In this document: piece after piece, positions 303 through 63,797 of the stretch
Position numbering within the stretch: position 1 is the stretch's first letter
How the letters are laid out: each line of letters opens with the position of its first letter
Assembly (NCBI RefSeq): GCF_030408395.1
Contig: NZ_CP046980.1
Span: forward strand, 496,001-560,000
Source of the DNA: Corynebacterium aquatimens
GTDB taxonomy: Bacteria; Actinomycetota; Actinomycetes; Mycobacteriales; Mycobacteriaceae
Direction of reading: 5' to 3'
DNA: 64,000 nucleotides
Program-made: the position numbers and the translations under genes
Notes under the pieces: model-generated
The model's input: the letters and a program-made list of their open reading frames with translations, nothing else
Databases searched by the model: none
Told to the model about the DNA's origin: nothing

Positions 303-2054
303 ATGACCGATGGCACGAACAATTTTTCTGCTCCTATCCCTGCGCAGAACGGTGGGCGCGCGCCGTGGCTGGATTTCTATCCAGAGTGGACGGCGCATTC
401 GTTGGACTACGAAGACGAAACGCTGGTGGATATCTACGAGGCGAATCTAAAGCGCAACGCCGATAAGCCGGCGACGCGTTTCTTTGGCCGGGGGCACACC
501 TATGCGGAGTTGGACAAGCAGGTGCGCGCCGCCGCGGCGGGCCTGCATGCCGTGGGTGTGAGCAAGGGCGACCGAGTGGCGATCATGCTACCGAATTGCC
601 CGCAACATGTCGACGCTTTTTTCGCCGCGCAGTTGCTCGGTGCGGTGGTGGTGGAGCATAACCCGCTGTACACCACGAATGAGCTTCGACCGCAGTTCGT
701 AGACCATGGGGCGAAGGTAGCGATCGTGTGGGACAAGGTCGCTGACACCCTCGGCCCGATCCGCGATGACGGAGGGACGGCGCTGGACACGATCGTCAGC
801 GTAAACATGACTAAAGCGATGCCGCGGTTGCAGCAGCTGGCGTTGAAGTTGCCCGTCGCTAAGCTCGCGCGGGCGAGGGAGTCGTTGACGGGGGAGCCGT
901 CGATAAGCGTGGTGCCCTGGGAAAAGTTTGTGGCGACGGGGCGCGCGCACGTGGTCGCGCGGACGGACATTCAATCAGCGGATCCGGCACTGATTTTGTA
1001 CACCTCGGGCACGACAGGCGCGCCGAAGGGAGCGCCGCTAACGCATGCGAACCTGCTGGCGAACCCGAAGCAGGGGCGCGCGTGGGTGAAAGAATTGCAG
1101 CAGCCTGGGCAACGAATGCTTGCCACGCTGCCGTTCTTCCACGCGTATGGGCTGACGTTCTCGCTGACCCTCACCGTGCTGATCGGCAGCGAGCTGATCC
1201 TGTTGCCCGCGCCCACGATGGAGCTGATCATGGGGGCGATGAAAGCGAAGAACCCGCCGACGTTCGTGCCGGGGGTGCCAACGGTTTTTGAACGCATTGT
1301 GGACACCGCGGAGGCTGAAGGCGTGGATCTTTCCGCGGTACAAACAGGGTTTTCTGGGGCCTCGTCGCTGCCCGCGGAAGTCATTGAGGGATGGGAGCGC
1401 GCTACTGGCGGGCGTCTCGTGGAGGGCTATGGGCTTACGGAAACCTCGCCGATCCTGGTCGGTAATCCGCCTACCGACGAGCGTCGACCAGGTTACATCG
1501 GCATCCCATTCCCTGACACGGACGTACGCATTGTCAACCCCGATAATCCCGATGAGGAAATGCCCTACGGTGAAGCCGGTGAGCTCATCGCCCGTGGCCC
1601 GCAGGTCTTCGGTGGCTACATCAATAACCCTGAGGCGACAGCAAAGGTGTTCCACAACGGGTGGTTCCGCACCGGTGACATGGCTGTTATGGAGCCGGAT
1701 GGCTTTATCAAGCTCGTTAGCCGCATCAAGGAGCTGATCATCACCGGGGGATTCAATGTTTACCCGGCGGAGGTCGAGGAGGTCATGCGCCGCCACCCAG
1801 ACATCGCGGAGGTTGCGGTCGTGGGGCGCCCGCGGCACGACGGTTCCGAGGACGTCGTCGCGTGTGTTGTGCTTGAGGACACGGCACGGCTCGACCCGGA
1901 GGGGCTGAAGAGTTACGCGCGCGAGAATCTCACCCGCTACAAGGTTCCGCGTGATTTTTACCACTTCGAGGAGCTCCCGAGCGACCAGCTGGGCAAGATT
2001 CGTCGCCGCGAGGTGCGCGATGTGCTGCTCGCGCGGATTGAGGCGGAGTTGTGA
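303..2054 (+). CDS. fadD: long-chain fatty acid-CoA ligase
   Basis: A 583-aa AMP-forming acyl-CoA synthetase of the ANL superfamily, which activates fatty acids to acyl-AMP and then acyl-CoA. Visible motifs are the P-loop LYTSGTTGAPKG (about residues 231-242), the aryl/acyl motif GYGLTETSP (about 375-383), the hinge region GWFRTGD (about 453-459), GFNVYPAEVEEV, and the C-terminal catalytic lysine in LGKIRRREVR (about 564). The length is normal for FadD. The ATG at 303 follows a 44-bp divergent intergenic gap. The stop overlaps the GTG of the ZIP transporter by 4 bp (GTGA), so the two are probably co-transcribed. The exact chain length used cannot be read from sequence. Confidence 0.92.
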   Translation: MTDGTNNFSAPIPAQNGGRAPWLDFYPEWTAHSLDYEDETLVDIYEANLKRNADKPATRFFGRGHTYAELDKQVRAAAAGLHAVGVSKGDRVAIMLPNCPQHVDAFFAAQLLGAVVVEHNPLYTTNELRPQFVDHGAKVAIVWDKVADTLGPIRDDGGTALDTIVSVNMTKAMPRLQQLALKLPVAKLARARESLTGEPSISVVPWEKFVATGRAHVVARTDIQSADPALILYTSGTTGAPKGAPLTHANLLANPKQGRAWVKELQQPGQRMLATLPFFHAYGLTFSLTLTVLIGSELILLPAPTMELIMGAMKAKNPPTFVPGVPTVFERIVDTAEAEGVDLSAVQTGFSGASSLPAEVIEGWERATGGRLVEGYGLTETSPILVGNPPTDERRPGYIGIPFPDTDVRIVNPDNPDEEMPYGEAGELIARGPQVFGGYINNPEATAKVFHNGWFRTGDMAVMEPDGFIKLVSRIKELIITGGFNVYPAEVEEVMRRHPDIAEVAVVGRPRHDGSEDVVACVVLEDTARLDPEGLKSYARENLTRYKVPRDFYHFEELPSDQLGKIRRREVRDVLLARIEAEL

Positions 2055-2857
2055 TCTTCGGGGTGGAGGCGCCCGCGTTCGCGGTGGCTTTTGGGATCAG
2101 CCTTTTCGCAGGCTTATCGACGGGCCTTGGTGGGCTCATCGTCGCCCTCAAGCGCCATCCTGGGGAGAGGTTTTTGGCGGCGGCACTGGGGTTTTCCGCC
2201 GGGGTGATGATTTATATCTCCCTGATGGAGTTGCTTCCCTCGGGGCTAGACGAGCTCGCTGGGGCTGGGTTGGGCGGCAGCGAGGTGTGGGGGACGGTCG
2301 CGTTTTTCGCCGGGATTGCGCTGATCGCTGTGATCGACCGCGTGGTGCCTGAAGACATCAATCCGCATGAGATCGCTGCCGAATCTGGCTCACCGGCCTC
2401 CATCGCGCGCATGCGCAAGGTCGGGCTGATGACTGCTTTAGCGATTGCGATCCACAACTTCCCGGAGGGGTTCGCCACATTCTTCGTTGCTCTAGCGGAC
2501 CCCCAGGTTGCGGTGCCCATCGCCGTCGCGATCGCGATTCACAATATTCCTGAAGGCGTCGCCGTTGCCGTCCCGATCCGCGAGGCCACGGGTTCCAAGT
2601 CGAAGGCCGCGTGGTGGGCGACCATTTCTGGGCTCGCGGAGCCGCTCGGCGCCCTGGTTGGGTTCGCCCTGCTTCAGCCGTTCATTGGTCCGGTAGCGCT
2701 GGGTGTCGCGTTTGCGGCGATAGCGGGGATTATGGTGTTCGTGAGCGTCGATAAGCTTCTGCCCACGGCGATTCAGACGGGCCGCCACCACGCGGCAGTC
2801 TACGGCTTGGTCGGTGGCATGGCGATAATGGCGTTAAGCCTCCTTTTGCTGCAGTAA
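2051..2857 (+). CDS. zupT: ZIP family metal transporter, zinc importer ZupT-like
   Basis: A 268-aa polytopic membrane protein with about eight hydrophobic segments. It carries the two ZIP signature helices: HNFPEGFATF (about residue 134) and HNIPEGVAVAVPIR (about 163), whose His, Asn and Glu side chains line the metal path in this family. Known ZupT proteins import Zn(II) and other divalent cations across the cytoplasmic membrane. The GTG start overlaps the acyl-CoA ligase stop, so translation is probably coupled. It contains two copies of the iterated 11-mer discussed in the findings (2112 and 2746). Metal specificity is inferred from the family only. Confidence 0.9.
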   Translation: MIFGVEAPAFAVAFGISLFAGLSTGLGGLIVALKRHPGERFLAAALGFSAGVMIYISLMELLPSGLDELAGAGLGGSEVWGTVAFFAGIALIAVIDRVVPEDINPHEIAAESGSPASIARMRKVGLMTALAIAIHNFPEGFATFFVALADPQVAVPIAVAIAIHNIPEGVAVAVPIREATGSKSKAAWWATISGLAEPLGALVGFALLQPFIGPVALGVAFAAIAGIMVFVSVDKLLPTAIQTGRHHAAVYGLVGGMAIMALSLLLLQ

Positions 2858-2866: not shown

Positions 2867-3718
2867 ATGCGGCTCACTTCTTTATTCTCCACCCCCGAAC
2901 TCCCTCCCGTTGGCGGCGGCGTCGCTGTGGTCACCGGCGCAACGTCAGGCATCGGGGAGGCCACCGCGCGCATGCTTATCGACGAAAACTTTTCCGTCAT
3001 CGGCACCACCCGTGACCCGTCGAACGTTGCGCGGCCTATCGCTGGCGTGACGTACGTGGGCCTTGATCTGGCGGACCCGGAGTCAATCGCGACGTGCGCC
3101 GCGTCCATCCTTGAGGTGGGTGTGCCTGAGGTGATCGTGAACAACGCCGGTGAATCCCAGTCGGGGCCCTTCGAAGAACTTCCGCGGGAGGCCATTGAGC
3201 GCCTTTTCCAGGTCAACGTGATCGGCCACGTCGACCTCACCCAGCGCCTATTGCCCGCGATGCGCGACGCCGGGCGCGGACGAATCGTAATGGTTGGGTC
3301 AATGCTGGGCAGTTTCCCGTTGGGGTTCCGGTCCTCTTACGTAGCGTCCAAGGCTGCGATCAAAGGCTTCGCATCCGCCGCGCGCCGGGAACTCGCGCCG
3401 TTTGGCATCGGGATCTCCACCGTCGAGCCCGGCTCCATCGCCACCGGCATCTCCCAGCGACGCACCCGATACATTGACACGGACGGGCCGTATGCCGCCG
3501 ACTACACCCGGATGGCCCGTGCCCTCGACGCCAATGAGTCCCGGGGTATTACCGCCGAGCGCGTCGCCCGCGAAATCTTAAAGCCGATCAGCGCGACCCG
3601 GCCCCGCCCGCACTACGCCACCGGGTCGATGGCGCCCGTGGCCTTCCCGCTCTCGCGGGTCGTGCCGCAGCAGGTCATGCTCAACGTGTTGTCCGCCAAG
3701 CACGATCTGCTTGACTAA
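2867..3718 (+). CDS. short-chain dehydrogenase/reductase
   Basis: A 283-aa classical SDR. The NAD(P)-binding motif TGATSGIGE lies at about residues 24-32, NNAGE at about 91, a serine in VGSML at about 144, and the catalytic pair in SSYVASK at about 155-161. The protein has an N-terminal extension of about 20 residues before the Rossmann fold. It starts 9 bp after the ZIP transporter and is probably in the same transcript. The substrate cannot be inferred; the catalytic residues appear complete. Confidence 0.85.
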   Translation: MRLTSLFSTPELPPVGGGVAVVTGATSGIGEATARMLIDENFSVIGTTRDPSNVARPIAGVTYVGLDLADPESIATCAASILEVGVPEVIVNNAGESQSGPFEELPREAIERLFQVNVIGHVDLTQRLLPAMRDAGRGRIVMVGSMLGSFPLGFRSSYVASKAAIKGFASAARRELAPFGIGISTVEPGSIATGISQRRTRYIDTDGPYAADYTRMARALDANESRGITAERVAREILKPISATRPRPHYATGSMAPVAFPLSRVVPQQVMLNVLSAKHDLLD

Positions 3719-3855: not shown

Positions 3856-5160
3856 ATGTCCTTTACGTCATTGCTCGCTACGGTTACGGCCACAGGTCTT
3901 CACGCCCTGGCCGATTTTGACCGTGACGCAGCGTTGGCCGCGGGTTTGAGTTCCACCACGGTGAACAATTGGAAGTCGCTGCACGAGCTGTATTACGGGT
4001 CCAGCGCGTGCCCGAAGCAACAGCGCATTGCGCGCGAGCTGGCTATTGAGGGCGCTTTTAGCTTCGACCAACTCCTCCTCATCGAGCGCCGTCTCCGCGC
4101 CGCCGGACTTCACCGCACCGCGAAGCGCACCTGGAAGCTCCGGCAGAAGCTCCTTGCGGCACCGTGCACGTACGCGTCACTGGAGCGTGCCGTGAAGAAA
4201 CTCGTGGAGGTCAAGCCCGCGCCGCCACAGGATCGCATCAGCTTTTCAAAATCACGCGAGGGCAAGCGGACGTTCTCCGTCACCGCGAATGAGCGTGATC
4301 TCGCTGACCTTGAGCACGCCCTGTCCGAAAACCTCGACCTTGCCGCGCCCGCCGGACCGCAAATGCTCTCGCGTTTCATCTCCATGCTTCGCGATGGCGG
4401 GGGGTTCGCCGTCCCCGTCTCCGTCCCTAGGCCGCAGTTGCTTGTGCCACTCGAGGCCCACGTAAAAGTGCTGGGGGACATCGGGGACGACACGCTCCTC
4501 GGGCTTACCGACGGCACCTCCATCCCCGCCTCCCAATACCTCTCACAGTTCTTCGCCGATCCGTCCTACGGGCTTGAAGTCGCCCTGTTCCATCCGGTGG
4601 AAGGACCCGTGAATCTGTTCCGCGCCGAGCGCCACGCCAACGCCAAGCAACGAGCCCTCGCGAAAGCGAACATGCCCGTGTGTGTCGTCCCGGGCTGCCG
4701 CCAACCCGCGGACAATTGCCAGATGCACCACATGAAAGCCTGGAAGCACGGCGGCTACACCAACGTGAGCAACCTCGTTCCGTTGTGCCGGTACCACAAC
4801 CAGATCAACGACGATGATGCCAACATCGCCGACACCACCACCGCAACCGGCGCCACCGCCGCCGCCCCCGCTGGCGCAGCCACCGCCCCCGCCGCCGACG
4901 ATCCTCACTTCGGAGGCCGCGACCCCAGCGCCCGCCCTAGTCGCCGGGCCAAACGGAAGAAACGTAACCCCGGGGATGTCGTCCCGGTTGGAGCTGTCCC
5001 GATGTGGCGGTCCCCCAAGGGTTTCCTCGTACCCAATGACGCTCATCCGAATTACAGATTCGGTGCCATGTTCACCCTTTTCCCCGACCTGGTGCCCGCT
5101 CCCGCGCGACAAGGAGCCCCACCGACTAGGTACGATCCTGAACTCTGGTCCAACGGATAG
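3856..5160 (+). CDS. DUF222-type HNH endonuclease domain protein (paralogue 1)
   Basis: The preferred start is ATG at 3856 (MSFTSLLATV), giving 434 aa; an upstream in-frame start at 3808 would add 16 residues unlike the paralogue. The N-terminal two thirds is the helical DUF222-like region. The C-terminal part carries a zinc-type HNH motif: CVVPGC (about 275), CQMHHMKAW (about 288), then NLVPLCRYHN. After the HNH motif comes a low-complexity Ala/Thr/Pro stretch, then a basic segment. It is clearly paralogous to the minus-strand gene at 24.7-25.8 kb (shared AAPAGPQ and HRTAK..KLR regions). Many actinobacterial genomes carry several copies; the biological role is not established. Confidence 0.8.
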   Translation: MSFTSLLATVTATGLHALADFDRDAALAAGLSSTTVNNWKSLHELYYGSSACPKQQRIARELAIEGAFSFDQLLLIERRLRAAGLHRTAKRTWKLRQKLLAAPCTYASLERAVKKLVEVKPAPPQDRISFSKSREGKRTFSVTANERDLADLEHALSENLDLAAPAGPQMLSRFISMLRDGGGFAVPVSVPRPQLLVPLEAHVKVLGDIGDDTLLGLTDGTSIPASQYLSQFFADPSYGLEVALFHPVEGPVNLFRAERHANAKQRALAKANMPVCVVPGCRQPADNCQMHHMKAWKHGGYTNVSNLVPLCRYHNQINDDDANIADTTTATGATAAAPAGAATAPAADDPHFGGRDPSARPSRRAKRKKRNPGDVVPVGAVPMWRSPKGFLVPNDAHPNYRFGAMFTLFPDLVPAPARQGAPPTRYDPELWSNG

Positions 5161-6437: not shown

Positions 6438-6725
6438 ATGAGTGACAACATTGAGATCACAAACCAGGAAGCGCACCATCGTTACGTCATTACGATTGGC
6501 GGAGAGGACGCCGGATTCGCCAACTACGTCGACGTCGACGATTCGCGGCGCGAGTTCAACCACACCGTTGTCTACCCGGAGTTTCGAGGGCAAGGCGTAT
6601 CTGGGAAGCTCATTGAGCACGCGCTTAACGACGCCCGCGAAATGCACAAAAAAGTAATCCCCTCGTGCTCAGCCGTGGACGGTTTTATTACGAAGCACCC
6701 TGAATACGAAGACCTCCGCGCTTAA
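6438..6725 (+). CDS. small GNAT-like N-acetyltransferase (YidJ/COG2388 type)
   Basis: A 95-aa protein consisting of little more than the acetyl-CoA-binding half of a GNAT fold. The motif YPEFRGQGVSGKLIEHALND (about residues 46-65) matches the R/Q-x-x-G-x-G/A signature, followed by PSCSAVDGFITKHPEY. The ATG at 6438 (MSDNIEITNQ) is preferred over an upstream TTG. COG2388 proteins are stand-alone minimal acetyltransferases; the substrate is unknown. It is convergent with cysE. Confidence 0.8.
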   Translation: MSDNIEITNQEAHHRYVITIGGEDAGFANYVDVDDSRREFNHTVVYPEFRGQGVSGKLIEHALNDAREMHKKVIPSCSAVDGFITKHPEYEDLRA

Positions 6726-6839: not shown

Positions 6840-7433
6840 TTAGATCGAGTAGTAGTCGGAGCGGGGGTCGACGTAGCGGTCTGGGTCGACGAGGTGCTTG
6901 CGCTCCTCGGGCTTGCGGGGGCGGCACTTGGCGGGCACACCGGTGGCGATGCAGTTCGGCCCAATGCTCTTTGTTACGACAGCATTGGCGCCAATCGCAG
7001 AGCCTTCGCCGATAGTGATGGGGCCGAGCACTTTGGCGCCGGCACCGATGGTCACGTTGTCTTCGATCGTCGGGTGGCGCTTGGTTTGGGTGAGAACCTG
7101 CCCGCCCAGGGTGACGCCGTGGTAGATCATCACGCCATCGCCAATTTCGGTGGTCTCACCGATCACTACGCCCATGCCGTGATCGATGAAGAAGCGGCGG
7201 CCGATGGTGGCGCCGGGGTGGATCTCAATGCCCGTCGCAAAGCGAGTGATTTGAGCAAGGACTCGTGCCGGCCCCTTGAAACCACGGGTCCACAATGCGT
7301 GGTTAATGCGGTGCATCCAGATAGCATGCAGCCCGGAATACACCAGCGCGTTTTCCACGTCGCCCCGGGCGGCGGGGTCGTGCGCCCGGGCATTAGAAAG
7401 GTCCTCACGGATCATGCTCAGCACGTTCACCAT
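6840..7433 (-). CDS. cysE: serine O-acetyltransferase
   Basis: A 197-aa protein of the SAT family that makes O-acetylserine from serine and acetyl-CoA, the first step of cysteine synthesis. The N-terminal helical part ([24 protein letters not shown]) is followed by the left-handed beta-helix with hexapeptide repeats, including [22 protein letters not shown] (about 92), the active-site histidines in that stretch, and [20 protein letters not shown]. This short form is usual in Gram-positives. The ATG at 7433 has an AGGT-type ribosome site. It lies downstream of cysK on the same strand with a gap of about 50 bp, so a cysK-cysE operon is likely. Confidence 0.93.
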
Positions 7434-7484: not shown

Positions 7485-8429
7485 TTACTCGCGGATGTCG
7501 TCGTAAAGCAGCGTGGAGATGTAACGCTCGCCGAAGTCGCAGATGATCGTCGCGATGGTCTTGCCAGCGTTCTCTGGGCGAGACGCGACCTCCAGGGCGG
7601 CCTTCACGTTGGCGCCGGTGGAGATACCGCCCAAGATGCCGTCCTTCTCTGCAAGTGCGCGAGACGTGGCGACGGCGTCTTCGTTGGAGACGGTGATGAC
7701 CTCGTCGATGATGTCGCGGTTCAGCGTGCCCGGGATGAAGTTAGCGCCCATGCCCTGGATCTTGTGGGGGCCTGCCTGGCCCTCGCTCAGCAGCGGCGAG
7801 GCCGACGGCTCAACGGCGATGAGCTTGACGTCCGGGTTCTGCTCCTTAAGGAACTTGCCGGCGCCGGAGATGGTGCCGCCGGTGCCCACGCCAGCGACGA
7901 GGATGTCGATCTGGCCGTCGGTGTCATTCCACAGCTCAGGGCCGGTGGTGTTGTAGTGGACGGTTGGGTTTGCTTCGTTCTCGAACTGGCGGGCAAGGAC
8001 GGCGCCCTCGTTCTGCTCCACGATCTCGTTGGCCTTTTCCACGGCGCCCTTCATGCCGGCGGCACCCGGGGTCAAGATGATCTCTGCGCCGTACGCCTTG
8101 AGGATCACGCGGCGTTCGACGGACATGGTCTCCGGCATGGTCAGGATGACCTTGTAGCCGCGGGCTGCGCCAACCAGTGCCAATGCGATGCCGGTGTTGC
8201 CGGACGTTGCCTCGACGATGGTGCCGCCAGGCTTGAGTTCGCCGGATGCCTCTGCGGCGTCGACGATTGCTTTACCAATGCGGTCTTTCACGGAGTTGGC
8301 GGGGTTGAAGAACTCCACCTTGCCCAGGATGCGCGCCTCGGCGGCGTCGGTGCCTTCCTTGATTCCGTGCAGCTCAACCAGGGGTGTGTTGCCGATTGTG
8401 TCCAGAATGTTGTTGTAAACGTTTCCCAT
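7485..8429 (-). CDS. cysK: cysteine synthase (O-acetylserine sulfhydrylase)
   Basis: A 314-aa PLP enzyme of fold type II that makes cysteine from O-acetylserine and sulfide. The PLP lysine is in NSVKDRIGK (Lys about 46). The substrate-binding loop is TSGNTG (about 73-78), and the PLP phosphate site is GVGTGGTISG. The ATG at 8429 (MGNVYNNIL) is preferred; the longer frame adds a non-conserved MWCRLSA leader. Together with the downstream cysE it forms a cysteine module. It is divergent from ramA with about 220 bp between starts. Confidence 0.94.
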   Translation of the reverse strand: MGNVYNNILDTIGNTPLVELHGIKEGTDAAEARILGKVEFFNPANSVKDRIGKAIVDAAEASGELKPGGTIVEATSGNTGIALALVGAARGYKVILTMPETMSVERRVILKAYGAEIILTPGAAGMKGAVEKANEIVEQNEGAVLARQFENEANPTVHYNTTGPELWNDTDGQIDILVAGVGTGGTISGAGKFLKEQNPDVKLIAVEPSASPLLSEGQAGPHKIQGMGANFIPGTLNRDIIDEVITVSNEDAVATSRALAEKDGILGGISTGANVKAALEVASRPENAGKTIATIICDFGERYISTLLYDDIRE

Positions 8430-8649: not shown

Positions 8650-9498
8650 GTGACAACAGTGGAATCCCAGCGGGTGAAGGACGATGATGATGCGATTCGC
8701 GCGTCACTCACCGCCCTGAAGACAGCAACGGGTATTCCTGTCGCAATGTATGGCACCCTGCTTGCGGACGATCGTTTGCAGATCACCCAGTGGATCGGCC
8801 TGCGCACGCCGGCGCTGCACAATTTGGTGATTGAGGCCAATCAGGGTGTCGGCGGTCGCGTGGTGTCGACGCGCCGGGCAGTGGGTGTGAGCGATTACAT
8901 GCGCGCAAACGTCATTTCCCATGAGTATGACTACGCGATTCAGGATGAGGGATTGCACTCGATCGTTGCGGTTCCGGTGATCGTCCACAGGGAGATCCGT
9001 GGGGTGCTCTACGTCGGCGTCCACTCGCCGGTGCGCTTGGGGGACAAGGTCATCGAGGAAGTCACCATGACGGCCCGCTCGCTGGAGCAAGACCTCGCCG
9101 TCAATTCTGCTTTACGACGATCGGAGGGCGGCAAAACCGCCTCCAACCCTGGCCGGGCTATGAATGGCGCGGAGTGGGAGCAGATTCGCGCCACGCACTC
9201 GAAGCTGCGGATGCTTGCGAACCGCGTTGAGGATGATTCTGTGCGCCGCGAGCTCGAGCAGCTGTGCGACCAAATGGTTTCCCCGGTGCGCGTAAAACAA
9301 TCAACGAAGCTTTCCGCTCGTGAGCTGGACGTTCTGTCCTGTGTGGCACTAGGTCACACCAACGTTGAAGCAGCGGAAGAAATGGGTATCGGTGCGGAAA
9401 CCGTTAAGTCCTACCTGCGCAGCGTGATGCGTAAGCTCGGTGCCCACACTCGCTATGAAGCGGTGAATGCGGCGCGGCGTATCGGCGCGCTCCCGTAA
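8650..9498 (+). CDS. ramA: LuxR-type transcriptional regulator RamA (acetate and carbon metabolism)
   Basis: With the GTG at 8650 the protein is 282 aa, the length of C. glutamicum RamA. AAGGAG lies 6 nt upstream of this GTG; an in-frame GTG at 8635 would overlap that ribosome site. Residues of about 20-160 form the GAF-like sensory region (SLKTATGIPV, HSIVAVPVIVHREIRGVLYVG). The C-terminal LuxR helix-turn-helix is TKLSARELDVLSCVALG...NVEAAEEMGIGAETVKSYL. In C. glutamicum RamA activates acetate, TCA-cycle and sugar-uptake genes and acts opposite RamB; the same regulon is inferred here. The gene order with cysK/cysE and murA supports orthology. Confidence 0.93.
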   Translation: MTTVESQRVKDDDDAIRASLTALKTATGIPVAMYGTLLADDRLQITQWIGLRTPALHNLVIEANQGVGGRVVSTRRAVGVSDYMRANVISHEYDYAIQDEGLHSIVAVPVIVHREIRGVLYVGVHSPVRLGDKVIEEVTMTARSLEQDLAVNSALRRSEGGKTASNPGRAMNGAEWEQIRATHSKLRMLANRVEDDSVRRELEQLCDQMVSPVRVKQSTKLSARELDVLSCVALGHTNVEAAEEMGIGAETVKSYLRSVMRKLGAHTRYEAVNAARRIGALP

Positions 9499-9522: not shown

Positions 9523-10776
9523 GTGAAGGAACGCTTTCTGGTCACTGGTGGAAACCCGCTTCACGGCGCAGTGCGTGTCGTTGGGGCGAAAAACAGCGTG
9601 CTGAAACTCATGGCCGCGGCTCTGCTCGCGGAGGGCACGACCACGCTGAATAATTGCCCGGAAATCCTTGATGTCCCGCTCATGCGGTCGGTGCTGGAGG
9701 GGCTTGGATGCGCCGTCGAGATTGATGGCTCTGTCGTGCGTATCACGACTCCGGCGCAGATTTCCTCGCTTGCTGATTTTGATGCGGTGCGGCAGTTCCG
9801 TGCGTCGGTATGCGTGCTTGGCCCGCTGACCGCGCGCTGCGGTGAGGCGAAGGTTGCGCTGCCGGGCGGCGATGCGATTGGTAACCGCCCACTGGATATG
9901 CACCAGTCGGGCTTGGAGAAGCTTGGCGCCACCACTCACATCGAACACGGCGCTGTAGTGGCCCGTGCGGAAAAACTCACGGGTGCGAAAATCAACCTCG
10001 ATTTTCCTTCGGTTGGCGCGACCGAAAATATTCTTACGGCAGCAGTACTTGCCGACGGCACGACGACCCTGGACAACGCCGCCCGCGAACCAGAAATCGT
10101 CGATCTGTGTGAGATGCTCAACCAGATGGGGGCGAAGATTAGCGGTGCGGGGACGTCCACGTTGGTGATTGAGGGCGTCGATAAGCTTGAGCCCACGGAA
10201 CACACCGTCGTGGGCGACCGAATCGTCGCTGGTACGTGGGCGTATGCGGCGGCAATGACCCAAGGCGACGTGACGGTTGGCGGGATTGCGCCGCGCCACT
10301 TGCACCTGGCCTTGTCGAAGCTGAAGACCGCAGGCGCGAACGTGGAAACCTATGAATCCGGCTTCCGCGTGCGGATGGATGGCCGCGCGAAGGCGGTTGA
10401 CTACCAGACCTTGCCGTTCCCGGGATTCCCCACGGACCTCCAGCCCATGGCCATCGCGCTTAACGCGGTTGCGGAGGGAACCTCCGTGATTACGGAGAAC
10501 GTTTTTGAATCTCGCTTCCGCTTTGTTGATGAGATGCTTCGGCTTGGTGCCGACGCGACCGTTGATGGCCACCATGTTGTCCTTCGCGGGGTGGAGCAGC
10601 TGTCGTCGACCGAGGTCTGGTCTTCCGACATCCGCGCCGGCGCCGGCCTTGTTCTCGCTGGTCTGGTGGCTGACGGCGACACCGTCGTCCATGACGTCGC
10701 GCACATTGACCGCGGCTACCCGCACTTCGTCGAGGACCTCACATCGCTTGGTGCGTCCATTTCCCGCGTCAGCTAA
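9523..10776 (+). CDS. murA: UDP-N-acetylglucosamine 1-carboxyvinyltransferase
   Basis: A 417-aa enzyme that transfers enolpyruvyl from PEP to UDP-GlcNAc, the first committed step of peptidoglycan synthesis. Features seen are [19 protein letters not shown] near the N terminus (Lys and Asn of the active site) and [14 protein letters not shown]. In the catalytic loop the sequence is [11 protein letters not shown]: the usual Cys (Cys115 of E. coli) is Asp (about residue 117), as in mycobacterial MurA. That change is known to give intrinsic fosfomycin resistance. The GTG at 9523 ([10 protein letters not shown]) is preferred; TTG at 9514 would add three residues. It starts 24 bp after ramA. Confidence 0.92.
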
Positions 10777-11521
10777 TCGCTTCGCGCGAAAAACCGCAGG
10801 TAAACGCATGCTTTACGACGGATCCCCACCCCTTTTCCCCATTTAACCCGAAACACGTCCAAGAAACCGCGTAAAAACGGGGTGTGAGCAGGGAATTTGT
10901 GTTGTGCGTGGACGGTGTGTAACTTAGTTCAAGTCAGCGCGACCGACAACGCCTCGCCGACTGGCCCGAGAAAACATCGGGAGTTCGGTTTTAAAGAGTG
11001 GCGGTAGGAAAACGAGTGTTGGCAAGACTCTCACTTAAGACTTCATTATGAGGCGAGTTTGACTCCGCTTCATGTGAGTGTGTAGGGTCATCCAAGCTGC
11101 TTGATCGGATTGCTTGTGTGGTTCGGTGGGTGTGCGTGTGTTGTGTGAGAACTCGATAGTGTGCCAATTGTTTTGTTTGGATTGGTTTGTGTGATTGGCT
11201 GCATGCTTTTTTGTGTGTGGTGTGTGCTGGTTGCTGCGGCGTGAACCTTTGATGGCGTCGTGGTGTTCTGGTTGGTTGCATGGGCTGATTGGATTTTGTT
11301 GTGTTCTGGTTTTTCCTCGTCGGATGCGGGATGCAACGTTGATGCTGTGACTGCGCATGTTTTTGTGTGTGTGGTTGTGGTGTTTGGTAATTTTTGGATT
11401 TTTTTATGAGCCAGTTCATGCTTCCGGCGGCTGAGTGTTGTTGGTTGTTGGTTGTGTGGGTGGTTTGTTTTGGTTGGGTTTTGGGCTTTTCACGGCCTGT
11501 TTCACTTTGTTTGTTGAAACT
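10777..11521 (+). promoter_or_regulatory. rrn operon promoter and leader region
   Basis: A gene-free 745-bp region. A possible promoter is TTGTGT (10897-10902), 17 bp, TAACTT (10920-10925). From about 11100 the + strand becomes strongly T/G-rich, a transcribed leader with few C residues. GTTTCA...TGAAAC near 11500 could form a hairpin just before 16S. The long minus-strand open frame here is an artefact of the base bias. Promoter assignment is tentative. Confidence 0.45.
11141..11162 (+). promoter_or_regulatory. boxA-like antitermination element in rrn leader
   Basis: TGTGTGAGAACTCGATAGTG is repeated with one change in the 16S-23S spacer (about 13385-13404, CTC to CTG). Such a TGAGAACT..ATAGTG element in both leader and spacer is typical of the antitermination (nut/boxA-like) signals of actinobacterial rrn operons. 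Confidence 0.5.
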
Positions 11522-16551
<5,030 letters not shown>

Positions 16552-30566: not shown

Positions 30567-30664
30567 CCCTTATGTCCGCAGCACTTAAAGCGCCGGAGGC
30601 GGGTGTGGTGAAGGCGCGGCTGGGCACCGATCGTCGATAAGCATGTGCATGGAAGGAGTGCGGC

Positions 30665-33467: not shown

Positions 33468-34592
<1,125 letters not shown>

Positions 34593-46419: not shown

Positions 46420-47154
46420 ATGACTGAATCTGCTTTTGTGCGCGCCGACGGCCGCGCGCTCGATGAAATGCGTCCCGTCCGCATCACCCGCGGCTTCACC
46501 TCCAACCCTGCTGGAAGCGTCTTGGTGGAGTTTGGCAACACCCGCGTCATGTGTACAGCGAGTGCTGAAGAAGGCGTCCCGCGCTTTAAAAAGGACTCCG
46601 GTGAAGGCTGGCTGACCGCGGAATACGCGATGCTTCCCGCCGCCACCCACGAGCGCATGCCGCGCGAATCCATGAAGGGCAAAGTCAAGGGCCGCACGCA
46701 TGAGATCTCGCGCCTTGTGGGGCGCTCTCTGCGTGCCGCTGTTGATCTCACCCAGCTGGGGGAGAACACGATCCAGATCGACTGCGACGTCCTGCAGGCC
46801 GACGGTGGGACGCGCACCGCGTCGATCACCGGCGCCTACGTTGCTCTCGCAGACGCCATTGCGCACCTCAAAGGCCTCGGCGCGGTGCCGGGCGAACCCC
46901 TCCTGCCGCCTGTCGCTGCAGTCTCCGTAGGCATTGTCGACGGCCGAATCAGCCTGGATTTGCCGTACGAAGAGGACTCGCGTGCGGAGGTGGACCTCAA
47001 CGTTGTGATGACCGAATCCGGAAACTTCGTGGAAGTCCAGGGCACCGGTGAGCACGGTTTATTCGGCCGCGCGGAGCTCGACGGCATGCTTGATCTGGCG
47101 ACGAAGGGCTGCTTCGAGCTTATCGACGCCCAGAAGCGCGCCCTGGGGTGGTAA
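46420..47154 (+). CDS. rph: ribonuclease PH
   Basis: A 244-aa phosphorolytic 3'-5' exoribonuclease that trims tRNA 3' ends. Features: [15 protein letters not shown] at the N terminus, [34 protein letters not shown] and [13 protein letters not shown], plus [21 protein letters not shown]. The ATG at 46420 ([10 protein letters not shown]) has GAAGAG upstream; ATG 46411 has no room for a ribosome site. rdgB follows 3 bp after its stop. Confidence 0.94.
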
Positions 47155-49892: not shown

Positions 49893-50504
49893 CATTTCGT
49901 CCAAGGCAGCGTCGCCACGCTGCGTATCGACGGGGGAGCACAACTGCGACAGGACCGTCACAGCGAATCCCTCTTTAAGCCCGTCGAGCACGGTTGCGCG
50001 CACGCAGTGGTCGGTCGCGATTCCGCACACCTCTATGGAATCGATACCCTTCTCGCGCAACCAGTCGGCCATCAGCGGTGTGCCGGTCTCAGCATCGCCG
50101 GTGGATCCAGCATCGCCCGCCGCTGAGTCGTTCGTTGCCTGCGCTGCCTGAACAGCTTCGAATCCCGAATACGCGGCGGTGTAGGCGCCTTTGCGGAAGA
50201 ATTCGTCGATAAGCGAAGGCTCAATCGGCTCCCGCAGGGCGGCACCTTCTGTGCCAGCGACGCAGTGGACTGGCCACGAGTCAACAAAATCCGGGTCGTC
50301 GGAAAAGTGAGAACCCGGATCAATGTGCCAATCCTGCGTGGCGACGATGGCGGCATAGCGGTCGCGGATATCGGCAGAAGACAAAAGCCCGGCGATTCCC
50401 TGCGCTACCTTGTCACCAAGGTCTGTCGCTAAGGAACCGCCGGGGCAGAAGTCGTTTTGAACGTCGACTACGACGAGAGCTGTCGCGCTTAGAGTGGTGC
50501 TCAT
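49866..50504 (-). CDS. pncA: nicotinamidase (isochorismatase family)
   Basis: A 212-aa amidase converting nicotinamide to nicotinate. Catalytic Asp in VVDVQNDFCPGG (about 12), Lys in FRKGAYTAAYSGFE (about 99), Cys in VCGIATDHCVRAT (about 150). The same enzyme activates pyrazinamide in mycobacteria. A stretch of about 25 residues between the Lys and Cys segments (AAQATNDSAAGDAGSTGDAE) is longer than usual. One iterated 11-mer lies at 50204. The nicotinate produced is the substrate of pncB, also in this window. Confidence 0.92.
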   Translation of the reverse strand: MSTTLSATALVVVDVQNDFCPGGSLATDLGDKVAQGIAGLLSSADIRDRYAAIVATQDWHIDPGSHFSDDPDFVDSWPVHCVAGTEGAALREPIEPSLIDEFFRKGAYTAAYSGFEAVQAAQATNDSAAGDAGSTGDAETGTPLMADWLREKGIDSIEVCGIATDHCVRATVLDGLKEGFAVTVLSQLCSPVDTQRGDAALDEMKAAGATVI

Positions 50505-50528: not shown

Positions 50529-51218
50529 TTAGGCGCGGCCAGCTGCTTCCAGCTCGTCGTTAGCCTCGTGGATGTCGCCGCCAGGGGTTGCGAAGTCCTG
50601 GACGCTCAGCGCGCGGAACGCCAGGCCAGCCAGAGCTGCACCGACGAGCGGAGCGAGAATGTAGAGCCAGATGTTGGCCCAGTCGAAGTTGCCGTTGACG
50701 GACAGACCCAGGGCTACCGCCGGGTTGAAGCCGCCGCCGGAGATCGGGCCAACAGCGAAAGCACCGGTCATGACGGTGGCACCGATAGCAAGACCGAAGT
50801 AGGAGTTGCCGTCGGTTTCAACGGAGGTAGCAACGTTGAGAACGACCCACACCAGGATGAAGGTGAACATCAGCTCAACGAAGAACGCCGGCGTGGTCTC
50901 AATCGCTGCGGGTTCAGCGGCGGGAAGGTTAGCAAGCTTGACGACGAGCGCGGCGAGAACACCACCAGCGACCTGAGCTGCCCAGTAGACGAGCATCTCA
51001 ACGGTATCCATCTTGCCGCGGATGAAGACACCCAGCGACACGGCCGGGTTGACGTGGGCACCGGAAATGTGGCCGGTGGAGTAGACCAAAATCATGAGGG
51101 CGAAACCAACTGCCACGGGGGTGAACTCGTTGGCGTTAGCTGCGGCGGTGATGATGGCGAACACGAAGAGGAACGTAGCCAACAATTCAGCTAGGGCTTT
51201 GCGGGCAATATCAGGCAT
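50529..51218 (-). CDS. MIP family aquaporin
   Basis: A 229-aa protein with six membrane helices and the two pore loops: SGAHVNPAVSLGVF (about 58) and SGGGFNPAVALGLS (about 172). Both NPA boxes are intact. The size and a small residue pattern around the pore suggest a water-type channel rather than a glyceroporin, but this is not certain. It is 24 bp upstream of pncA in the same direction and could be co-transcribed. Confidence 0.9.
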   Translation of the reverse strand: MPDIARKALAELLATFLFVFAIITAAANANEFTPVAVGFALMILVYSTGHISGAHVNPAVSLGVFIRGKMDTVEMLVYWAAQVAGGVLAALVVKLANLPAAEPAAIETTPAFFVELMFTFILVWVVLNVATSVETDGNSYFGLAIGATVMTGAFAVGPISGGGFNPAVALGLSVNGNFDWANIWLYILAPLVGAALAGLAFRALSVQDFATPGGDIHEANDELEAAGRA

Positions 51219-56943: not shown

Positions 56944-57639
56944 CTACCTTAGTTCAGATGCTGGCGATTGCAAAAACCGCTGGTAGGCGGCCTCAGATTC
57001 GCCTGCTGATTTCGCAGCTTCCGAACCCGAGGGGCCTGGGGTGCCCACGAAGAGCGCGCGGCGGTAGTAATCGAGCTCCCTAATTGATTCCACAATGTCC
57101 GCGAGTGCACGGTGCGCCATGCCTTTTTCTGGCTGGTTGTAGTAGGCCTTCGGGAACCATCGTCGGGCGAGTTCTTTGATGGTGGACACGTCGATCATGC
57201 GGTAGTGCAGGGCTTGATCAAGCCGCGGCATGTATTCGCGGATGAATGCGCGGTCCGTGGCAATCGAGTTTCCTGCCAGCGGTGGACGTTCGTAGGAGCA
57301 ATGCTTATCGACGAGCTCTAAAACGGCTGCTTCAGCCTCGGCCAGCGTGATTGTGGACGCGCGCACCTGCTCGGTGAGACCGGACGTTCCGTGCATGTTA
57401 CGCACAAAGTCATCCATCTCCGCCAACTCATCCTCGGTGGCGTGAACGACCATATCGATGCCGCCGTCGAGAATGTTCAGGTCTGCGTCAGTGATTAGTG
57501 CAGCTACTTCTACGATGACGTGCCGGCGGACGTCAAGGCCCGTCATTTCCAGATCGATCCATACGATGCGGTCGTATTTCTCTGACCCTTCGGTGCCCTC
57601 AGGGGCTGGCACGGTACCCGTATTCTCCGTCTCGCTCAT
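56944..57639 (-). CDS. orn: oligoribonuclease
   Basis: A 231-aa DEDDh exonuclease that finishes RNA decay by degrading short oligonucleotides. Motifs: [12 protein letters not shown] (first Asp, Glu), [19 protein letters not shown] (second Asp), and [14 protein letters not shown] (His and last Asp). About 20 residues precede the core and a 30-residue tail follows ([17 protein letters not shown]). It directly flanks the tRNA-His gene. Confidence 0.93.
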
Positions 57640-59010: not shown

Positions 59011-61050
59011 ATGTCTGAAGATGGCGAGGGCGATATCCAGGAGAAGGGCACAGCAGTGGGCACACATCGCCCGCGGGCTGTAGCCGCGTGGCCGATGTAC
59101 GTTGCTTCTGCTGTCGTGGCAGCGGTGGTTGCGGGCGCGCTGTCGTACTCGTTCTTGGGGGAGTCGCTGGCCGCGCTGGGTATTCCTGATCCTGGCGTGA
59201 TTACTACGTTTGGTTTGCCGTTTTTGCGGGGAATGGCATGGATGCTGATGGCGCTCGCGACTGGGTCGTGGATGTTTTCCGCATTCTTGATTCCGCCTGA
59301 CGCGCTTGAGCTTCACGACGCTCACCTGACGGTTGATGGCCACATCGCGTCGCGGACTGCGTCGCTTGCAATGCTTGGTGTGGCCGCTATTTCTTTGGTG
59401 ATGGTCCCACTAGTGTTGTCGGATGTGTCGGGAACCCCATTCGCTGATGTGGTGTTCGCACCCGGATCGTGGGCGTTGGCGCTGGACAAGGTCGCGGACG
59501 CGCAAGTGTGGGGTCTTGTTGCCCTGTTCGCAATGGTGGTGGGTTTCAGCGGTCTCATCGTCGGTGGGGCGAGGGCATCGTGGGGCTCACAGGTGGCGCT
59601 TTTTCTGGGTTCGATCGTCGTGATCATGCCCCTCGGGATGTCTGGGCACTCCGCGGCGGGTGGTAACCACGATTACGGCACGAATTCCTACCTGTGGCAC
59701 CTCACATTCCTCGTGATCTGGGTCGGTGGGCTTATGGCTTTGGTGGCCCATGGCCGACGCCTCGGCCCCCATCAAATTGCCGCGGTGAAGCGTTACTCCG
59801 TGATCGCGCTGTTCGCGTTCTTCGCGATGATGATCTCAGGGGTAGTCAACGCACTTATCCGCGTGCGTATCGACGACCTGTTGTCAACGGCGTACGGGGG
59901 AGTGATCCTGGCTAAGGTCGTTGGTCTTGCGGTGTTGGGGTTGCTTGGCTTTGCGCATCGTCAGATCACCATTCCGCAGCTCGCTACAAAACCCGCGCTA
60001 TTCGGACGCGTGGCATTCGTGGAAGTCTTAGTCATGGCCTTGGTTACGGGGTTGGCGGTGTCGCTGGGGCGCACCCCGCCGCCGGCACCGGTGAATCCGA
60101 ATCTCACCGCGATGGAAATCCAGATGGGCTACAACCTCTATGAGGCGCCGGGCTTTTGGAAGTCCTTCACAATGTGGCGTTTTGAAGTGCTCTTCAGCGT
60201 CATCGCGATTCTGCTCGCTGTGTACTATTTGCACCTCACGCAAAGGGTGAAAGGGTGGGACCACCGTCGCACTGCGTGGTGGCTCGCGGGGTGTGCGTTA
60301 ATCGTGGTGACCTTGTCATCCGGAATCGGTATGTACATGCCTGCGGCGTACTCGATGCACATGGTCGTGCACATGACGCTTTCGATGGGTGTGCCGGTCT
60401 TCCTTGTGATGGGCGCGCCGCTGACGTTGGTGAAAGAAGCTTTCCCCGCGGGCGAATTCAATGCGCGTGCTTGGGTTGAAGCCTTAGAACAATCAACGCT
60501 TCTGCGCGTGGTTACGTATCCGCCGATCAACACTATCCAGTTCCTCGTAATCTTCTACGTGTTGTACTTGTTCCCCAGCTTGTATGCGCTCGCCATCTCG
60601 GAGCATGCCGGCCACGTGATTATGAACCTGGTGTTCTTGGTCTCCGGCTACATCTACTTCTGGGATCTCATCGGTCCGGACCACATTCCGCACCGCCAAA
60701 AGATTCCGATGCGCTTCGCGTGGTTTGTCGGGTCTATGCCGCTGCACTTGTTCATGGGCGTGTACTTGATGCAGCTCAACGTCGTTTTGGCGGAGGACTT
60801 TTACCATTCGCTGCAGTTGCCGTGGGACCCGGACCTGCTCAAGGACCAAAAAGTCGGCGGTGGCATCGGCTGGGGTTCTGGTTCATTCCCGCTGGCCATC
60901 GTCTTCATGATCCTCCTGGTTGGCTGGCTTAAAGAAGACCGAGCCGAGGCGCGGGAGCGGGATCGCCGCGAGGACGAATCGGAAGATGAGGAGTGGCGGG
61001 CCTACAACGAGATGCTTGCGCAGGCGGCAGTCCAGAGGAAACAGCGCTAA
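59011..61050 (+). CDS. ctiP: CopD-CtaG fusion, copper transport and insertion protein for cytochrome aa3
   Basis: A 679-aa membrane protein from ATG 59011. The N-terminal half has about eight helices of the CopD copper-resistance type (LPFLRGMAWMLMALATG, HLTFLVIWVGGLMALVAHGRR). The C-terminal half is the CtaG (caa3 assembly) domain with MYMPAAYSMHMVVHMTLSMGV rich in Met and His, HAGHVIMNLVFLVSGYIYFWDLIGPD and PLHLFMGVYLM. The same two-domain protein in C. glutamicum, CtiP, is needed to supply copper to cytochrome aa3. ctaD is in the same window. The frame upstream of 59011 runs through tRNA-Arg and is not coding. Confidence 0.9.
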   Translation: MSEDGEGDIQEKGTAVGTHRPRAVAAWPMYVASAVVAAVVAGALSYSFLGESLAALGIPDPGVITTFGLPFLRGMAWMLMALATGSWMFSAFLIPPDALELHDAHLTVDGHIASRTASLAMLGVAAISLVMVPLVLSDVSGTPFADVVFAPGSWALALDKVADAQVWGLVALFAMVVGFSGLIVGGARASWGSQVALFLGSIVVIMPLGMSGHSAAGGNHDYGTNSYLWHLTFLVIWVGGLMALVAHGRRLGPHQIAAVKRYSVIALFAFFAMMISGVVNALIRVRIDDLLSTAYGGVILAKVVGLAVLGLLGFAHRQITIPQLATKPALFGRVAFVEVLVMALVTGLAVSLGRTPPPAPVNPNLTAMEIQMGYNLYEAPGFWKSFTMWRFEVLFSVIAILLAVYYLHLTQRVKGWDHRRTAWWLAGCALIVVTLSSGIGMYMPAAYSMHMVVHMTLSMGVPVFLVMGAPLTLVKEAFPAGEFNARAWVEALEQSTLLRVVTYPPINTIQFLVIFYVLYLFPSLYALAISEHAGHVIMNLVFLVSGYIYFWDLIGPDHIPHRQKIPMRFAWFVGSMPLHLFMGVYLMQLNVVLAEDFYHSLQLPWDPDLLKDQKVGGGIGWGSGSFPLAIVFMILLVGWLKEDRAEARERDRREDESEDEEWRAYNEMLAQAAVQRKQR

Positions 61051-61090: not shown

Positions 61091-61128
61091 GCCTGTGGAT
61101 AACTTCGAGTTATCCACAGGCTTTTTTT
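61091..61128 (+). terminator. terminator of ctiP with DnaA-box-like arms (copy 1)
   Basis: GCCTGTGGATAACT, loop TCG, AGTTATCCACAGGC, then seven T: a perfect 14-bp stem. Each arm contains the 9-mer TTATCCACA. Confidence 0.85.
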
Positions 61129-61190
61129 CGGCATCAAAAAAGCCTGTGGATAACTTCGAGTTATCCACAGGCTTTTTTGATGCCGAAAAA
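61124..61190. terminator. 67-nt perfect palindromic hairpin with DnaA-box-like arms (copy 2)
   Basis: The same 14-bp stem and TCG loop as copy 1 but extended by AAAAAA/TTTTTT and CGGCATC/GATGCCG to 32-bp perfect arms. A-run before and T-run after make it a bidirectional terminator; four TTATCCACA sites lie within 100 bp counting copy 1. Confidence 0.8.
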
Positions 61191-62065: not shown

Positions 62066-62126
62066 TGATGTACCCTTTGTGGTGTTTGAACCTTGAAAAA
62101 TTCTTGCTCCATGAAGGGGAAATTAC

Positions 62127-63797
62127 GTGGCTGAGTTCATCTACACGATGAAAAACGTTCGCAGGGCTATCGGTGACAAAGTCATTCTGGACAACGTCAC
62201 CATGGCCTTTTACCCCGGCGCCAAGATCGGTGTCGTGGGACCCAACGGCGCGGGTAAGTCCTCGCTGCTGAAGATCATGGCGGGCCTGGACCAGCCGAAT
62301 AATGGTGAAGCGTTCTTGGATCCTGGCGCCACCGTCGGAATCCTGCTTCAAGAGCCGCCGTTGAATGAGGAAAAGACGGTTCGTGAGAACGTCGAAGAGG
62401 GTCTCGGCGACATCTTCACCAAGAAGCAGCGATTTGAGGAAATCGCAGCCGAAATGGCAACGAACTACTCCGATGAGCTGATGGAAGAGATGGGCAAGCT
62501 CCAAGAGGAGCTCGATGCCGCGGATGCGTGGGAGGTTGACTCCAAGATCGAGCAGGCCATGGACGCACTGCGTTGCCCGCCGCCGGATGAGCCTGTGACC
62601 CACCTGTCTGGTGGTGAGCGCCGTCGAGTAGCGCTGGCGAAGCTCCTGCTTAGCGAGCCTGACCTGCTTCTTCTTGACGAGCCGACGAACCACTTGGACG
62701 CCGAGAGTGTTCTGTGGCTGGAGAAGCACCTGCAGGACTACCCGGGTGCTGTCTTGGCCGTGACCCACGACCGCTACTTCCTGGACAACGTCGCCCAGTG
62801 GATCTGTGAGGTCGACCGCGGCAAGCTCTACCCGTACGAGGGCAACTACTCCACGTACCTGGAAACGAAAGCTCAGCGCCTTGAGGTTGCAGGTAAGAAA
62901 GACCAGAAGCTGCAAAAGCGTCTGAAGAACGAACTCGAGTGGGTTCGCTCCTCCCCGAAGGCCCGCCAGGCAAAGAACAAGGCCCGCCTGGAGCGCTACG
63001 AGGAAATGGCGGCAGAAGCAGAGAAGTACAAGAAGCTCGACTTCGAAGAAATCCAGATCCCGACCCCGCCGCGTTTGGGTAACAAGGTGGTTGAAGTCAA
63101 GGATCTGGACAAGGGCTTCGATGGCCGCGTGCTTATCGACGATCTGTCGTTCACGCTGCCCCGAAACGGCATCGTCGGTGTGATTGGCCCGAACGGTGTG
63201 GGTAAAACGACCCTCTTCAAGACCATCGTTGGCCTGGAAGAGCCGGACTCGGGAACCGTCGACGTCGGTGAGACCGTGCAGTTGTCATACGTGGACCAGA
63301 ACCGCGCCAACATCGACCCCGAAAAAACCGTGTGGGAAGTCGTCTCCGACGGCTTGGACTACATCCACGTTGGACAGAACGAAATGCCGTCGCGCGCCTA
63401 CCTATCCGCCTTCGGCTTCAAGGGCCCGGACCAGCAGAAACCGTCGAAGGTTCTCTCCGGTGGTGAGCGCAACCGCCTCAACCTGGCTCTGACCCTGAAG
63501 CAGGGCGGAAATCTGATCCTCCTCGACGAGCCGACAAACGACCTCGACGTGGAAACCCTGGGCTCACTAGAGAACGCTCTCCAGCAATTCCCGGGCTGCG
63601 CCGTAGTGATCTCGCACGACCGCTGGTTCCTTGACCGCACCTGCACCCACATCCTGGCCTGGGAAGGCAACATCGAAGAAGGCAAGTGGTTCTGGTTCGA
63701 AGGCAACTTCGGAGACTACGAAAAGAACAAGGTCGAGCGTCTCGGTGAGGAAGCCGCCAAGCCGTCCCGCGTTACGCACCGCAAACTGACCCGTTAG
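62127..63797 (+). CDS. ettA: energy-dependent translational throttle protein EttA (ABC-F)
   Basis: A 556-aa ABC-F protein with two ATPase domains and no membrane segment. First: GPNGAGKSSLLK (about 37), LSGGERRRVAL, LLLDEPTNHLD. Linker (P-site tRNA interaction motif) about 245-300, rich in Lys and Arg. Second: GPNGVGKTTLFK (about 354), LSGGERNRLNLA, LLDEPTNDLD. It binds the ribosomal E site and gates the first peptide bond according to ADP/ATP level. GTG start at 62127 with GAAGGGG upstream. Strong codon bias suggests high expression. Confidence 0.94.
   Translation: MAEFIYTMKNVRRAIGDKVILDNVTMAFYPGAKIGVVGPNGAGKSSLLKIMAGLDQPNNGEAFLDPGATVGILLQEPPLNEEKTVRENVEEGLGDIFTKKQRFEEIAAEMATNYSDELMEEMGKLQEELDAADAWEVDSKIEQAMDALRCPPPDEPVTHLSGGERRRVALAKLLLSEPDLLLLDEPTNHLDAESVLWLEKHLQDYPGAVLAVTHDRYFLDNVAQWICEVDRGKLYPYEGNYSTYLETKAQRLEVAGKKDQKLQKRLKNELEWVRSSPKARQAKNKARLERYEEMAAEAEKYKKLDFEEIQIPTPPRLGNKVVEVKDLDKGFDGRVLIDDLSFTLPRNGIVGVIGPNGVGKTTLFKTIVGLEEPDSGTVDVGETVQLSYVDQNRANIDPEKTVWEVVSDGLDYIHVGQNEMPSRAYLSAFGFKGPDQQKPSKVLSGGERNRLNLALTLKQGGNLILLDEPTNDLDVETLGSLENALQQFPGCAVVISHDRWFLDRTCTHILAWEGNIEEGKWFWFEGNFGDYEKNKVERLGEEAAKPSRVTHRKLTR

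Follow-up and report, generated by a model that had tools for sequence, protein, structure and literature searches.

A directional two-part word iterated across Corynebacterium chromosomes: a candidate self tag resembling DNA uptake sequences

Uptake words have been described for two Gram-negative families (PMC5031613), and the account of Frye 2013 (PMC3630211) gives 2,245 and 3,269 copies of eikDUS in two genomes and describes DNA uptake sequence (DUS) dialects of the Neisseriaceae that are congruent with phylogeny. The present study analyzes an iterated word of Corynebacterium aquatimens, the 11-mer CGTCGATAAGC, in a stretch of 64,000 nucleotides (hereafter the window; positions 496001-560000 of the host genome, G000, which is 1 contig of 2,524,396 bp) and across 242 Corynebacterium genomes. 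The 11-mer belongs to a wider family, CGTCG-NN-AAGC, and the patterns detected are copies on a thousand scale, placement on both strands, lack of replication polarity, dialects, turnover between species and absence from the small sample of secondary contigs studied. It is on these grounds that we propose, with a confidence only modestly in its favor, that the family may mark self DNA for Tad/ComEA/ComEC transformation in the manner of an uptake sequence; we infer the receptor, the bias of uptake and the resulting drive.

A sequence-only reading of the window had reported 21 exact copies between 898 and 63141, 10 on one strand and 11 on the other, and a recount gives the same figures (10 +, 11 −), far above shuffled and Markov expectations. 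The word is the top over-represented 11-mer of the window (21 copies, where a 4th-order Markov model expects 0.2), and matches to it at no more than one mismatch number 40, compared with a mean of 1.12 and a largest value of 6 in 100 dinucleotide shuffles. That reading took the unit to be a sharp 11-mer, which is real but is only the commonest form of CGTCG-NN-AAGC, all 16 centres of which are enriched; the window holds 40 copies of the family, 21 exact and 19 with other centres, compared with 1.27 in shuffles. In the whole host genome there are 515 exact copies, 257 forward and 258 reverse, with none of the reversed word used as control, and 1,473 copies of CRTCG-NN-AAGC with 73 of its control. 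The copies in the window, found by word search, are given below in window positions, intergenic calls being those of a simple home-made gene caller.

898..908, + strand, exact CGTCGATAAGC, first copy in window
2112..2122, − strand, exact CGTCGATAAGC
2746..2756, + strand, exact CGTCGATAAGC
2974..2984, − strand, exact CGTCGATAAGC
10176..10186, + strand, exact CGTCGATAAGC
18041..18051, − strand, exact CGTCGATAAGC
18359..18369, − strand, exact CGTCGATAAGC
21860..21870, + strand, exact CGTCGATAAGC
22425..22435, − strand, exact CGTCGATAAGC
27279..27289, − strand, exact CGTCGATAAGC
27957..27967, + strand, exact CGTCGATAAGC, intergenic
30632..30642, + strand, exact CGTCGATAAGC, intergenic
31340..31350, + strand, exact CGTCGATAAGC
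33504..33514, − strand, exact CGTCGATAAGC, intergenic
39105..39115, + strand, exact CGTCGATAAGC
42234..42244, − strand, exact CGTCGATAAGC
46257..46267, + strand, exact CGTCGATAAGC
47118..47128, − strand, exact CGTCGATAAGC
50204..50214, + strand, exact CGTCGATAAGC
57303..57313, − strand, exact CGTCGATAAGC
63131..63141, − strand, exact CGTCGATAAGC, last copy in window
854..864, + strand, family CGTCG-CT-AAGC
4503..4513, − strand, family CGTCG-GT-AAGC
6623..6633, − strand, family CGTCG-TT-AAGC
7233..7243, + strand, family CGTCG-CA-AAGC
7499..7509, + strand, family CGTCG-TA-AAGC
9109..9119, − strand, family CGTCG-TA-AAGC
10810..10820, − strand, family CGTCG-TA-AAGC, intergenic
17192..17202, + strand, family CGTCG-GG-AAGC
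21591..21601, − strand, family CGTCG-AC-AAGC
21659..21669, + strand, family CGTCG-TT-AAGC
24009..24019, − strand, family CGTCG-AC-AAGC
25133..25143, + strand, family CGTCG-GT-AAGC
25616..25626, − strand, family CGTCG-CT-AAGC
29449..29459, − strand, family CGTCG-AC-AAGC
31760..31770, − strand, family CGTCG-AC-AAGC
38308..38318, − strand, family CGTCG-CT-AAGC
41892..41902, + strand, family CGTCG-TT-AAGC
50936..50946, − strand, family CGTCG-TC-AAGC
59310..59320, − strand, family CGTCG-TG-AAGC

The form of the word was studied in a sample of the host genome made up of the window and 40 stretches (864 kb, 34% of the genome). This sample holds 183 exact copies where 1.8 are expected and 485 copies of the family where a 5th-order Markov model, fitted with the word itself included, expects 26, so that the count lies far above what such a model predicts. 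Every one of the 16 centres exceeds its 4th-order Markov expectation, AT being favored (183 copies) and followed by TC (43), TT (40), AG (35) and GC (32), while every CATCG-NN-AAGC form occurs 0 or 1 times, near or below expectation. At position 9 C is tolerated as well (105 copies), and position 11 is less strictly specified. The claim that no base is conserved outside the 11 was nearly right, there being a mild preference for T at −1 (53%) and for A or G at +12 that is probably in part an effect of codon phase. Near-misses, as densities per Mb in the host genome and in 832 kb pooled from word-less genomes, were rarer in the host at position 1 (12 vs 19), position 2 (13 vs 34) and position 10 (25 vs 48), as if changed into full words; they were equal at position 5 (23 and 23) and stood at 111 and 136 at position 8. 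The tolerance at the centre together with the near-miss pattern indicates that the unit is a directional motif of two blocks with a free 2-bp centre and some positions read stringently. Read directly from its letters, CGTCGNNAAGC is not self-complementary.

The word is found in the greater part of the genus as sampled. Exact CGTCGATAAGC occurs at least once in 234 of the 242 Corynebacterium genomes, with counts from 0 to 782, and CRTCGNNAAGC reaches at least 4 times its reversed control in 184 (median 1,129.5 copies, range 153-2,032), lies below 2.5 times control in 50 and falls between these values in 8. Among 140 genomes from 30 other genera of the family, CRTCGNNAAGC reached at most 2.7 times control. 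By CtaD, the nearest named relatives of the host among 80 records, 5 of them Corynebacterium, were Corynebacterium sp. p3-SID1145 (90%) and C. lipophiloflavum (88%), which bears out the genus assumed by the sequence-only reading, and small samples of these held 4 and 3 exact copies, respectively; one 19-kb stretch of C. vitaeruminis held 11 family copies, and about 21.7 kb of C. sp. HMSC04H06 and C. sp. CNJ-954 held 1 and 0. On a midpoint-rooted tree of TopA and a helicase from 39 genomes (20 word-bearing, 19 word-less), some nodes of which are weak, the word-less genomes form ten separate lineages.

Two dialects may be distinguished by position 2, where G prevails in 169 of the 184 word-rich genomes and A in the other 15. 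The CATCG share of the word is at least 72% in the 15 and at most 25% in the remaining 169, with no genome at 30-70% A, and the six A-dialect genomes on the tree are one clade. The preferred 2-bp centre also varies by genome, and variant words were seen in sampled word-poor or intermediate genomes (CATCGGCAAGC in G001, CGTCGGCAAGC in G005 and CGTCGAGAAGC in G075). One genome without enrichment of CRTCGNNAAGC, G011, has a word of its own, CGCGRCGTCAT, with 644 copies (315 and 329 by strand) and a reversed control of 6, and this word has at most 26 copies in each of the other 57 genomes searched. Words of a GGCGTC type are weakly iterated in the word-less G080, G176 and G241 (GGTGGCGTCA, GGCGTCAAT and CGGCGTCGAT; stretches L191, L193, L203 and L224-L228), possibly as further dialects. 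There was no replacement word in G042 and none evident in samples of G010 and G028.

It could be that the word is a product of sequence composition, of bias in codons or amino acids, or of a dispersed repeat element, and the placement of copies in genes lends this some color. The sequence-only reading had copies in several reading frames, but the frames are not random: in the 864-kb sample (695 genes and 83% coding by the home-made caller), 114 of the 139 genic exact copies start at a third codon position and spell V-x-K or L-x-D. Genic copies run against gene direction in 83 cases and along it in 56. The same reading noted two intergenic gaps with copies; intergenic copies do exist, and in the window the simple caller puts 3 exact copies out of 21 between genes, together with 1 of the 19 that have other centres. 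Its view that codon and amino acid bias are insufficient is borne out. The excess of 183 copies vs 1.8 goes with at most 1 copy of each form with A at position 2, 44 of the 183 exact copies are intergenic, and the preferences in the flanks are no more than mild. Codon bias is excluded because the position-2 dialect is sharply bimodal across species, and the whole explanation appears extremely improbable.

Conservation was assessed at orthologous codon positions in 11 locus pairs of word-bearing species, some of which share a genome and are not independent. All nine specified bases were kept at 25 of 69 orthologous sites, with 8.6 expected from same-phase windows (p=4e-7). Sites are thus held between species, yet about two thirds turn over, and the word is found in sister species as well. 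Neither of the outcomes that the sequence-only reading had named as refuting it, counts near a 5th-order Markov expectation and absence from sister strains, was thus obtained. The family word was absent (0 copies) from a small sample of 64.1 kb in four secondary contigs, those of the word-bearing genomes G012 (44.5 kb), G033 (144.6 kb), G037 (31 kb) and G022 (4.1 kb), where about 25 copies would be expected from the whole-genome word densities of the same four genomes with genome sizes rounded. Visual inspection showed transposase-like genes on two of the four (L232, L234) and a ParA-like gene on L232, and the secondary contigs are presumably plasmids.

Along the chromosome the family is evenly spaced, with 11.2 copies per 20 kb and a variance of 9.75 over 42 intervals, which is Poisson-like. 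A 6.4-kb gap at 10821-17191 of the window is free of family copies, and inside it lies an rRNA operon (16S, 23S, 5S; 11524-16789). No replichore skew was seen in the host genome (leading 237, lagging 258, p=0.37), and across the 184 word-rich genomes the strand z had an SD (standard deviation) of 0.8 and a maximum of 2.1, so the earlier statement that strand bias is lacking, unlike in KOPS and Chi, stands. An even spread of this kind could also reflect a binding or stop site for an intracellular chromosome protein that needs many even sites, such as a nucleoid organiser, a recombination or repair nuclease (for example AdnAB) or a self/non-self defence nuclease, with the protein changed or lost by lineage. 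Conservation of sites between species is consistent with this, as is the retention of transformation genes by word-less genomes, and if a nuclease recognized self by the word, this could account for its absence from the secondary contigs sampled. Chi and KOPS are polar relative to replication, however, and the present word is not, which excludes KOPS; RecC (PF04257) was found in 0 of 80 genomes with the E. coli control positive, and RecBCD Chi is excluded for that reason. In having two parts over 11 bp and a free centre the word also departs from the known Chi words, and no candidate protein was found in a search that went no further than RecC. We regard a site of this kind as unlikely, though it deserves more weight than the other alternatives.

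Another explanation is that the word, like HIP1 of cyanobacteria, is kept by a DNA methyltransferase or by repair bias and has no role in uptake. HIP1 itself has been linked to orphan methyltransferases (PMC4390886). The resemblance to HIP1 suggested by the sequence-only reading does not hold, since HIP1 is palindromic and the Corynebacterium word is not. Moreover, methylation alone explains neither a word with 9 of 11 bases specified nor its replacement by an unrelated word in G011, and the loss of near-misses at several positions differs from the single-transition signature of Vsr-type repair. This explanation seems quite improbable.

A similar set of features has been attributed to biased uptake of conspecific DNA in Neisseriaceae and Pasteurellaceae in the published accounts we cite (PMC3630211, PMC5031613, PMC12616744). 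Under an uptake tag in Corynebacterium, the transformation machine (Tad/Flp pilus, ComEA, ComEC, DprA) would have a DNA receptor at the cell surface with a preference for DNA that bears the word. Chromosomal alleles of the same species, being tagged, would be taken up and recombined more frequently, and this biased exchange would accumulate the word and maintain it at around a thousand copies over the two strands of the chromosome. Changes in the receptor would replace the word or move it from one dialect to another, as from CGTCG to CATCG, and the word would erode where receptor specificity was lost or transformation stopped. Competent bacteria without uptake words exist, for example Bacillus, and for that reason the word-less lineages may have lost specificity and kept competence.

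Machinery of this kind is widespread in the genus. ComEC occurs in 241 of 242 genomes; TadA (the helicase/secretion-neighbourhood ATPase) and DprA each occur in 80 of 80 genomes (40 word-bearing, 40 word-less), 79 and 70 of them over the cut-off, and ComEA- and ComEC-like open frames were present in 21 of 21 loci (12 word-less, 8 word-bearing and the host). The Tad locus of the host comprises TadA, a Flp-type pilin with DUF4244 and a DEAD-box helicase, with TadB and two TadE-like proteins named by position only, and its ComEA (HhH, with a sub-threshold SLBB) adjoins ComEC. Transformation in another actinobacterium, Micrococcus luteus, depends on Tad/Flp pili, with ComEA/ComEC (PMC6370729, PMC6667448). 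The host ComEC (L121:8513-9922) has 469 aa and a Competence domain with no further Pfam domain; ComEC open frames in several word-less genomes span 650-880 aa, and the word-bearing G014 and G015 have an in-frame TGA stop inside their ComEC matches. DprA scored 57 bits in the word-less G028 and 124.5 bits in the word-less G112 (family cut-off 191), and these two also have some of the most diverged ComEA and ComEC in the set. Presence of competence genes was rejected as the explanation of the word, as ComEC, TadA, DprA and ComEA occur in word-bearing and word-less genomes alike.

Competence genes appeared to evolve faster in word-less lineages in a set of up to 20 genomes (ComEA p=0.0003, ComEC p=0.006, helicase p=0.002), with TadA faster on terminal branches (p=0.03). 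This excess was not seen with the helicase as yardstick in place of TopA or LepA, and when TadA was set against helicase plus TopA, mean distances gave p=0.20 and terminal branches 0.47. Over 79 genomes, a comparison of ComEC bits with TopA bits yielded t=-1.9 for the word-less label.

The likeness to Neisseria and Haemophilus put forward by the sequence-only reading holds for copy number, strands, lack of skew, conservation with turnover, dialects, absence from the small sample of secondary contigs and uptake genes; it does not extend to inverted pairs, which are not enriched, and the uptake genes are also found in word-less genomes. A number of observations weigh against an uptake tag. First are those on the word: near-misses are commoner in the host than in word-less genomes at position 3 (112 vs 79 per Mb), position 4 (60 vs 18), position 9 (163 vs 43) and position 11 (74 vs 43), and close inverted pairs amount to 9 neighbouring pairs under 60 bp, in mixed orientations, in 877.7 kb of the host genome. 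Secondly, all 40 word-less genomes carry ComEC (with the host protein as query), TadA and DprA, only G028 and G112 falling below 170 bits for DprA. No feature of a Tad pilin or of ComEA cleanly splits word-bearing from word-less groups or one dialect from the other. The Flp pilin was found in 40 of 40 Tad loci, and relatives of the host TadE in 19 of 20 word-bearing vs 12 of 20 word-less loci, a difference that leans towards an uptake tag but with most misses lying in one part of the tree, and of TadE2 in 16 vs 12 (20 loci each); missing matches may reflect divergence, and Tad pilins were set aside as receptor because they gave no clean separation. A ComEA residue before the second hairpin (K/R/P vs S) was likewise rejected as dialect reader once further genomes were included, G034 and G240 being G dialect with S. 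G034, which is absent from the tree, has CATCG in 144 of 961 copies and is of the G dialect, with a ComEA resembling that of the A-dialect G001, so that the history of the A dialect may be less simple than that of a single clade. In the rate test, 1 of 8 control genes also gave p<0.05 (nadD, p=0.046); in the 38-genome set the effect weakened to p=0.066 for TadA and likewise for the helicase (terminal branches, 31 tips), and for ComEC no difference was seen in either of the two TopA-matched bins with members of each group (49 of 79 genomes; p=0.91 and 0.36). Lastly, among the matches listed in the open-licence PMC literature there was no report of natural transformation, an uptake word or an iterated word in Corynebacterium. 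Queries with the exact word and its complement returned no Corynebacterium paper by title from that literature, and the Corynebacterium motifs reported in the text matched in PMC5217627 are CRISPR repeats.

A broader proposition, to which we give an even chance, is that Corynebacterium has genus-wide sequence-tagged natural transformation, so that uptake words would have arisen independently for a third time, now for the first time in a Gram-positive lineage and with a Tad pilus and ComEA as their reader, with dialects and replacements acting as mating-type-like barriers between species. If true, a third and unrelated system would show self-DNA tagging to be a repeated solution, and a medically and industrially important genus would transform naturally. 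The question of why uptake words evolve would become testable, with two dialects, one clear replacement and ten word-less lineages on the 39-genome tree as natural experiments. Strain engineering could gain from DNA tagged with a species' own word.

Several other features were met. At 61091-61178 of the window are two near-identical tandem hairpins followed by T-runs, with stems that spell GTTATCCACAG, which we take to be DnaA-box-like, and with four TTATCCACA within 76 bp; from its letters this region may be a double terminator or a DnaA-binding cluster. Proteins with an HNH-endonuclease domain are encoded at 3808-5160 (450 aa) and 24657-25970 (437 aa) of the window. In G062, a CRISPR-array-like repeated unit with more than 70 copies (stretches L150-L153) dominates the k-mer counts of an 80-kb sample.

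Compared with known word systems, Chi and KOPS are alike in being short over-represented chromosomal words and differ in the replication polarity that the Corynebacterium word, as examined in the host genome, does not have. HIP1 (GCGATCGC) is alike as a short word iterated chromosome-wide in a clade and low in some of its members; the comparison fails because the Corynebacterium word is directional and not palindromic, whereas HIP1 is a palindrome tied to methyltransferases. The uptake signal sequence (USS) of the Pasteurellaceae (AAGTGCGGT; receptor predicted as ComN/PpdA) shares a similar copy number, strand symmetry and dialects. It differs in sequence, and the AT-rich flanks of the H. influenzae USS contrast with the nearly free flanks seen here. 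Close inverted pairs of DUS and USS form terminators, and there is no such excess in the host genome. The DUS of the Neisseriaceae (12-mer ATGCCGTCTGAA, receptor ComP) is unrelated in sequence to the fixed CRTCG and AAGC blocks with free 2-bp centre of Corynebacterium, and its hosts use type IVa pili, whereas Corynebacterium are Gram-positive actinobacteria with Tad pili, a mycolic-acid outer layer to the envelope and no receptor found. In other respects DUS and the Corynebacterium word are alike: both are non-palindromic, reach thousand-scale copies, have relatives without the word, and occur as several dialects that follow phylogeny around a common core.

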